Position numbers and translations under genes: made by a program. DNA of 64,000 nt. Source: Thalassovita litoralis (GTDB lineage: Bacteria > Pseudomonadota > Alphaproteobacteria > Rhodobacterales > Rhodobacteraceae). Below are positions 52,130 to 57,593 of this stretch, piece after piece (position 1 is the stretch's first letter; every line of letters starts with the position of its first letter). The notes under the pieces are model-generated. The model saw nothing but the letters and a program-made list of their open reading frames with translations, did not search any database and had not been told where the DNA came from. Location: the NCBI RefSeq assembly GCF_900182725.1, contig NZ_FXTO01000004.1, positions 1-64,000 on the forward strand, written 5' to 3'.

Positions 52130-56643
<4,514 letters not shown>

Positions 56644-56670
56644 GTTTAGTGTTCCACTTTGTTCGCAAAT

Positions 56671-56685
56671 GTTCTCAAAAAGTTC
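56671..56685 (+). promoter_or_regulatory. LexA (SOS) box
   Basis: GTTC-TCAAAAA-GTTC exactly matches the alphaproteobacterial GTTC-N7-GTTC LexA site. Two further GTTC copies precede it at 56651 and 56661. It lies between recG and the small gene at 56748, 62 bp before that start. Confidence 0.75.
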
Positions 56686-56747
56686 TTGATCCGACTCGGT
56701 GGATATGAGAACAAATGAGCAACAAAGGTTAACAAGGAGTTGCCGCC

Positions 56748-56870
56748 ATGATCCGCCAGATTGCAGATATCGTGACCCGCGCCGAAGATACCCTGTTGGG
56801 GGATGTTCTGGGGCTGGCGTCGCTGGTTGTGATGACCGTGGCCGCGCTTCACCTGCCTGCGTTGTTCTGA
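56748..56870 (+). CDS. Small single-pass membrane protein, probable SOS gene
   Basis: 40 residues. AAGGAG lies 8 nt before the ATG, and a strong terminator follows about 140 bp later. The N-terminal half is amphipathic and charged (IRQIADIVTRAEDTLLGD); residues about 20-40 form one membrane segment (VLGLASLVVMTVAALHLPAL). A LexA box lies upstream. Caulobacter SidA, a 29-residue SOS-induced inner-membrane division inhibitor, is the nearest functional model by size, topology and control, but no sequence homology is claimed. Confidence 0.75.
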   Translation: MIRQIADIVTRAEDTLLGDVLGLASLVVMTVAALHLPALF

Positions 56871-57012
56871 GTTTCTGCCTGCGGTCTGACCTGTTCCGCC
56901 TGACGCGCCAACATGTCCCAAGTTTCGGCGCTGACTTTACTGCCTGTCCCAAGTCCTCGGTTGTTGCCTCTTCCGATGTCGGTGGGCGTCCCCGGTCAGA
57001 CACGCGACTTTG

Positions 57013-57049
57013 CCGCCGCCTTCCATATCGGAAGTGCGGCGGTTTTTTT
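57013..57049 (+). terminator. Intrinsic terminator after the small SOS-type gene
   Basis: CCGCCGC (57013-57019) pairs with GCGGCGG (57036-57042), the inner TTCC pairs with GGAA, and TTTTTTT follows. Confidence 0.9.
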
Positions 57050-57074: not shown

Positions 57075-57527
57075 TCAGGCGCAGGCGGTTTCGGCAGCCT
57101 TGTCCATCGCTTCCAGCGTGGCTTCGATTGCCAGCATGATTGACGCGTGGCGGTTTTTGTAATCACGGGCGGGGCGCAGCACCTCGAACCCGTCAAATGG
57201 CGCGTCGGGGGTGGGGCCGTCCTGTTTCAGCAAGGCTTTGAGCTGATCGCGGGCCGTGGCGATCTGTTCACGGGTACAGCCCGGCGCAGAAGCCCCCACA
57301 ACGGCAGCGGCAGCCTGTCCCAAAGCGCAGGCTTTGACATCCTGCCCATAGCGGTCAATCTTGCCGTCCTTCACGGTGATATCCACGGTCACGGTTGACC
57401 CGCAAAGCGGCGAGCGTTTCTTGACCGTTGCATCGGGATGATCCAGCCGTTCATCATTGGGAATATCCGCCGCAAGCGCCAGAATCCGGCTGGAATAAAG
57501 TTTGATCAGGTCTGTTTCGCCGCTCAT
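57075..57527 (-). CDS. NifU/IscU-like Fe-S cluster scaffold
   Basis: 150 residues from the ATG at 57527 (AAGGA upstream). The three conserved cysteines are in SPLCGSTV, KACALGQAA and APGCTREQ, giving the cluster-building site. It probably assembles or carries Fe-S clusters. It is divergent from hisI, with 66 bp between starts. Confidence 0.88.
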   Translation of the reverse strand: MSGETDLIKLYSSRILALAADIPNDERLDHPDATVKKRSPLCGSTVTVDITVKDGKIDRYGQDVKACALGQAAAAVVGASAPGCTREQIATARDQLKALLKQDGPTPDAPFDGFEVLRPARDYKNRHASIMLAIEATLEAMDKAAETACA

Positions 57528-57593
57528 GGCTTTTCCTTCGTGGTTCTGTGGCATAGATAGGGGGCCAAACCGCAGATGCAAAAGGTTTATCCC

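Follow-up and report, generated by a model that had tools for sequence, protein, structure and literature searches.

What does the short gene behind recG in Thalassovita litoralis make, and what switches it on? The original prediction was of a gene under the control of an SOS box that encodes a 40-residue membrane protein, a candidate division inhibitor similar to SidA of Caulobacter. We examined this locus in the window (the whole stretch of 64,000 nucleotides that was analysed) and in relatives of T. litoralis. The features on which the argument draws are the following.

52145-54556, plus strand: ligA, which precedes recG; named by an NCBIfam equivalog match over the cut-off
54553-56643, plus strand: recG, the conserved upstream neighbour; NCBIfam equivalog match over the cut-off
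56651-56674, plus strand: three GTTC units at 10-bp spacing, beginning at 56651, 56661 and 56671, the third being the first half of O2
56682, plus strand: fourth GTTC unit, which forms GTTC-N7-GTTC with the unit at 56671
56671-56685, plus strand: O2, GTTC-N7-GTTC, a candidate LexA operator, from its sequence and its conservation in relatives
56686-56691, plus strand: TTGATC, a possible -35 element (consensus TTTACA in 62 anchored loci; putative assignment)
56709-56723, minus strand: O3, GAAC-N7-CAAC (GTTG-N7-GTTC on the minus strand), a candidate second LexA operator
56734-56739, plus strand: AAGGAG, the ribosome binding site in the sequence, 8 nt before the ATG
56748-56870, plus strand: 40-codon frame for a predicted single-helix membrane peptide, from conservation, hydropathy and a helix model
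56871-57011, plus strand: conserved multibranch 3' RNA of 141 nt, from a covariance model match, covariation and fold
56875-56881 (CTGCCTG), 56914-56919 (TGTCCC), 56940-56950 (CTGCCTGTCCC) and 56965-56970 (TGCCTC), plus strand: C-rich stretches of the 3' RNA
57012-57049, plus strand: intrinsic terminator, a GC-rich stem and seven T, from the sequence and from relatives

The convergent neighbour on the minus strand (57075-57581) resembles SufU in a weak NCBIfam match that scores below the cut-off (39 of 92.5 bits). The GTTC-N7-GTTC site and the two extra GTTC units upstream of it were found where the original prediction had placed them, and the 40-codon frame does have the strong ribosome site ascribed to it. 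The terminator that had been assigned to the gene also exists, but not directly behind the ORF, from which it is separated by the structured RNA.

A search with the single protein gave matches in 80 of 147 relatives (E ≤ 1). We examined 70 loci, of which 30 came from the search and 40 were hand-picked from the other places listed, with matches inside long frames excluded. In 67 of the 70 the small ORF has the end of recG upstream of it in the same orientation, so the predicted frame is retained behind recG in relatives. The promoter counts that follow leave out the loci L061, L095 and L096, where recG was not detected (L096 looks spurious).

Taken alone, GTTC-N7-GTTC is at chance level in the 64-kb window, with 2 occurrences against a shuffled mean of 1.69; genome-wide there are 148, against 84 for the reversed pattern. 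A chance box, as the count in the window would suggest, is ruled out at this gene because the pattern is conserved in 65 of the 67 recG-linked relatives, where mononucleotide shuffles give a mean of 0.16 of 67. The same loci carry GTTC-N6-GTTC in 57 cases (shuffles, 0.19 of 67) and GAAC-N7-CAAC in 56 (shuffles, 0.28 of 67), and the relaxed form GAAC-N7-[CGT]AAC is found in 65. The distance from the second GTTC of O2 to the GAAC of O3 is 27 bp in 61 of the 67. Comparison thus shows, at the level of sequence, that a promoter with facing 11-bp repeats is conserved. Its consensus in the 62 anchored loci, which leaves out 8 of the 70 loci because they lack the 27-bp layout, is tttGTTC.CaaaTGTTCT.AaAAAGTTCTTtACa-N11-AtaTGAGAACAAA-N3-gCAACA.

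A scan of named genomes for the promoter core gave at least 119 stretches, 80 of which were examined; these 80 loci were selected by their promoter and say nothing independent about its conservation. All 80 extended-core loci sit at this one gene, and the full element therefore appears to be specific to the locus. The small ORF is present in 79 of them (L168 ends too soon), and 79 have recG 13-553 bp upstream in the same orientation (L170 begins after recG). Among the genera represented are Ruegeria, Sulfitobacter, Roseovarius, Yoonia, Thioclava, Paracoccus, Rhodovulum and Rhodobacter.

The T. litoralis genome encodes LexA and RecA, and GTTC-N7-GTTC boxes precede its lexA, recA, UvrD-like, dinB-like (IMS), SRAP and MmcB-like genes. 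One box-preceded gene we take to be a probable uvrA; its Pfam match is just below the cut-off. The accessible part of a published account gives GTTC-N7-GTTC, an 11-bp repeat, as the form of alphaproteobacterial LexA sites (PMC12700426). The best reading of O2 and O3, judged by their sequence, is that they are two candidate LexA operators on one promoter, and SOS control of the small gene is well supported by comparison. In the same genome, GTTCTT stands 28 bp before GAAC-N7-GAAC upstream of recA (L220, G000:C4:135870-135912), near the 27-bp layout of the small gene. The pattern GTTCTT-N18-ATGAGAAC, with spacing one longer than that of the small-gene promoter (N17), did match the recA promoter and, with up to 3 mismatches, occurs 102 times in the T. 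litoralis genome against 97 for the reversed pattern, which is no excess.

An alternative is that the promoter is not controlled by LexA and that some other factor acts at the facing GTTC/GAAC repeats, in a different stress response or in a cell-cycle response. The restriction of the full element to one gene in all 80 examined loci (of at least 119) would fit such a factor. So would the fact that O2 and O3 each deviate at one position from the other SOS boxes of the genome: the spacer of O2 ends in A where those of seven others end in T, and GTTG replaces GTTC in one half of O3. Against this, the 11-bp repeat is of the LexA type known from the same account of Alphaproteobacteria, O3 resembles the dinB box, with which it has the flank ATGAGAACA in common, and the layout at recA is similar. 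We consider a factor other than LexA unlikely, and go on with SOS control as the preferred reading.

The peptide family is present in 255 of 295 Rhodobacteraceae genomes (profile from a 30-row alignment, E ≤ 0.001). Four of the 255 (G169, G251, G279 and G311) have a second match to the profile, and the remainder have one match each. Across a sample of the class, the profile matched 7 of 240 genomes (E ≤ 0.05), 3 of them Rhodobacteraceae; outside this family the sample held no credible member, the other 4 matches being partial and inside frames of 174-290 residues.

The closest pairs of ORFs show the pattern of purifying selection, with synonymous change far above replacement (for example pN 0.01 with pS 0.17, 0.04 with 0.58, and 0.06 with 0.78). 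When all pairs are taken together the mean pN is 0.42 and the mean pS 0.66, and the mean pN/pS is 0.79 over the 692 pairs with pS below 0.6; saturation of synonymous sites makes this coding signal weak. A spurious ORF is ruled out by how widely the gene occurs in the family and by the coding pattern that the closest pairs show, and on this comparative evidence the 40-codon frame is a real gene. Residues D19, G22 and L34 are invariant in the 30-row alignment; the D and G served as an anchor in one set of column counts, of which the invariance in the 30 rows is independent.

The single membrane segment that had been proposed for the peptide is borne out by two predictions. Hydropathy reaches a maximum of 2.16 over residues 16-34, and AlphaFold2 models one helix at residues 2-39 with a mean pLDDT of 87.4. 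The peptide is thus predicted to be a very small single-pass membrane protein. Searches of Pfam, NCBIfam and PHROGs with 30 members matched 0 families, and the window peptide alone had a single Pfam match, below threshold (E 0.16).

The conserved 3' RNA, which lies beyond the span originally noted, is a more unusual part of the locus than the peptide. Behind the stop codon, relatives share the stretches CTGCCTG, TGTCCC and TGCCTC, and then a GC-rich terminator. In 61 UTRs (9 of the 70 loci were left out of these counts) CTGCCTG occurs 79 times against 2.5 in shuffles, and CTGTCC 76 times against 6.7. Single folds of 26 UTRs mostly have a long closing stem and several arms, with the C-rich stretches in loops. 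Taken alone, the window RNA has a fold that is moderately better than those of shuffles, with a z of -2.26, and 4 of 200 shuffles were equally good.

Because plain MAFFT alignments of the UTRs contained too many gaps, covariance models were used instead, a first built from 9 sequences and a second from 30 rows. At E ≤ 1 the first recovered 54 of the 70 loci and the second 69 of the 80 named loci; at E ≤ 0.01 they recovered 44 and 62. The counts for the first model include the 9 sequences from which it was built. In the first set 92.2% of cells were paired, compared with 68.9% in shuffles and 36-48% in slid controls; in the second the values were 91.5%, 64.6% and 36-49%. Since alignments made by a covariance model lean towards its own structure, the fairer comparison is with the slid controls. 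Covariation is strong: double-sided cells numbered 207 against 49 in shuffles in the first set and 339 against 79 in the second, where 2 of 500 shuffles had at least as many pairs with a double-sided change. Of the 69 rows of the second set, 3 are identical to model-building sequences and one more duplicates a row of the first set.

In the window the covariance model match covers 56866-57012 (E 9.9e-15). All 123 matches in the two sets lie on the strand of the ORF and begin between -10 and +87 nt relative to its stop. There are more G-U than A-C cells (52 to 15 and 68 to 25), as would be expected of a plus-strand transcript, although the fit itself leans that way. The T run of the terminator is also on the plus strand.

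With strict filters the RNA model gave one match each in 146 of the 295 Rhodobacteraceae genomes (E ≤ 0.01) and missed 149, and in the class sample it matched 2 of 142 genomes, both Rhodobacteraceae. No match was seen in 16 of the 70 loci, even at E ≤ 1. These misses in loci and genomes imply that the RNA is either not as constant as the peptide or diverges more quickly. In one relative (locus L028, genome G034) the ORF, the promoter boxes and recG are present, the C-rich RNA and the terminator were not seen and the model gave no match; the 3' RNA can apparently be lost alone. In two others (L011 and L015) the 3' UTR measures 213 nt as far as the terminator stem, compared with 141 nt in the window, and has an extra C-rich stretch.

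A known RNA family was considered and rejected. For the window stretch Rfam gave 5 matches (E ≤ 5), none of which came near the gathering score; a search with 20 loci gave a single match (E ≤ 0.01), which was likewise well short of the gathering score and lay away from the 3' RNA. No such motif appears in the accessible parts of papers on structured-RNA candidates (one with 104 candidates, one a 26-genome study).

The coding frame with its membrane-type helix, the promoter, the RNA fold and the terminator are conserved, as the comparison shows on the side of sequence. A conserved ORF and a conserved RNA structure thus stand in one unit with a terminator, as in a coding (dual-function) sRNA; that they share a transcript we infer. 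We put at about even the chance that this is an SOS-induced transcription unit with two products, a membrane peptide and a base-pairing 3' RNA. In the undamaged cell LexA would sit on O2 and O3, flanking or overlapping the core promoter, and keep the promoter off. DNA damage would lead to cleavage of LexA and to a short transcript of roughly 340 nt. Its 5' half would encode the 40-residue single-helix peptide of the inner membrane, which may restrain growth or division during repair. Its 3' half would be a folded RNA with exposed C-rich loops that may regulate other mRNAs by base pairing, either inside the whole transcript or after processing. Throughout this scheme we infer LexA binding, induction, the transcript ends, the action of the peptide and base pairing by the RNA.

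Two other schemes leave the RNA a minor part or make the peptide a toxin. In the first, the peptide is a SidA-like inhibitor and nothing more, stopping septation via FtsW/FtsI/FtsN, and the 3' fold would serve only to stabilise the mRNA. The accessible part of its description (PMC4211646) presents SidA of Caulobacter crescentus as a division inhibitor of 29 residues in the inner membrane, induced in the SOS response, and size, single helix and likely control all agree with it: SidA is a very small single-pass protein of the inner membrane, as the peptide here is predicted to be, with SidA under LexA control and the peptide behind LexA-type boxes. The peptide here is longer, at 40 residues, and the same part of that description mentions no structured 3' RNA for SidA. 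This scheme also leaves the conserved loop sequences of the RNA without account, and the partial matches inside long frames were all that the peptide profile gave outside Rhodobacteraceae, so that we think it improbable.

In the second scheme the SOS peptide depolarises the membrane and slows the cell, and its mRNA is kept in check by its structure or an antitoxin RNA. TisB (29 residues) and DinQ (27 residues) of Escherichia coli are LexA-controlled inner-membrane peptides of type I toxin systems, as described in the accessible part of PMC8309996, and the hydrophobic peptide here is of the same size class and topology, with LexA control likely; it differs in its 40 residues, compared with 27-29, and TisB and DinQ have known RNA antitoxins. 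In the one pairing examined here, the 3' RNA pairs with its own ribosome site no better than with mismatched ones (-25.84 against -26.29 kcal/mol), so that neither a signal of pairing in cis nor an antitoxin RNA was found, and we doubt the toxin scheme as well. As analogies, SidA and TisB/DinQ seem to us to be equal. Of the original prediction of an SOS-controlled division inhibitor, the SOS control is supported by comparison; the conserved 3' RNA had been missed, and a toxin like TisB or DinQ fits the same facts.

The preferred reading, with two products, has counterparts closer to T. litoralis. In the accessible parts of the literature on Rhodobacter sphaeroides, of the same bacterial family, a small protein gene and a regulatory RNA are joined on a short transcript in Pos19 (PMC5036791), RSP_7527-UdsC (PMC9779115) and ccaF1-CcsR1-4 (PMC8625941, PMC10253847). 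Those sources give control by RpoHI/RpoHII or RpoE, unlike the SOS control proposed here, and CcaF1 is described as a DUF1127 protein of 71 residues. UdsC was rejected as the same RNA: in the available text it is 67 nt long, with a terminator at nt 39-67, and both its length and its RpoHII promoter differ. Our search of the accessible parts of the open-licence literature found no description of the peptide, the RNA or the locus, and the main texts of a LexA paper on Dinoroseobacter shibae and of sRNA papers on Ruegeria and Paracoccus do not contain recG. A master list of 79 sRNAs of R. sphaeroides may already hold a transcript from this locus.

With its conserved unpaired C-rich loops, the 3' RNA looks like a base-pairing regulator. 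Sites for the one perfect trans partner examined, GGGACAGGCAG, number 27 in 9 genomes, a total that includes the copies in the RNA itself; the reversed pattern gives 29, so there is no enrichment. RNAIII of Staphylococcus aureus combines in a single molecule the coding sequence of a small membrane-active peptide and exposed C-rich loops that pair with mRNAs; it is longer, is under quorum control and belongs to an unrelated organism.

Tentatively, and with less assurance than for the two products themselves, we suggest that the locus may be a family-wide SOS effector, in which a membrane peptide that arrests growth or division and a three-armed riboregulator with C-rich loops share one transcript. 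It would be a DNA-damage counterpart of RNAIII, whose RNA half would reprogram translation and whose peptide half would act on the envelope. If this is right, a large family of marine and soil bacteria would have an SOS effector, and a conserved regulatory RNA would be added to the SOS response within the peptide's own transcript.
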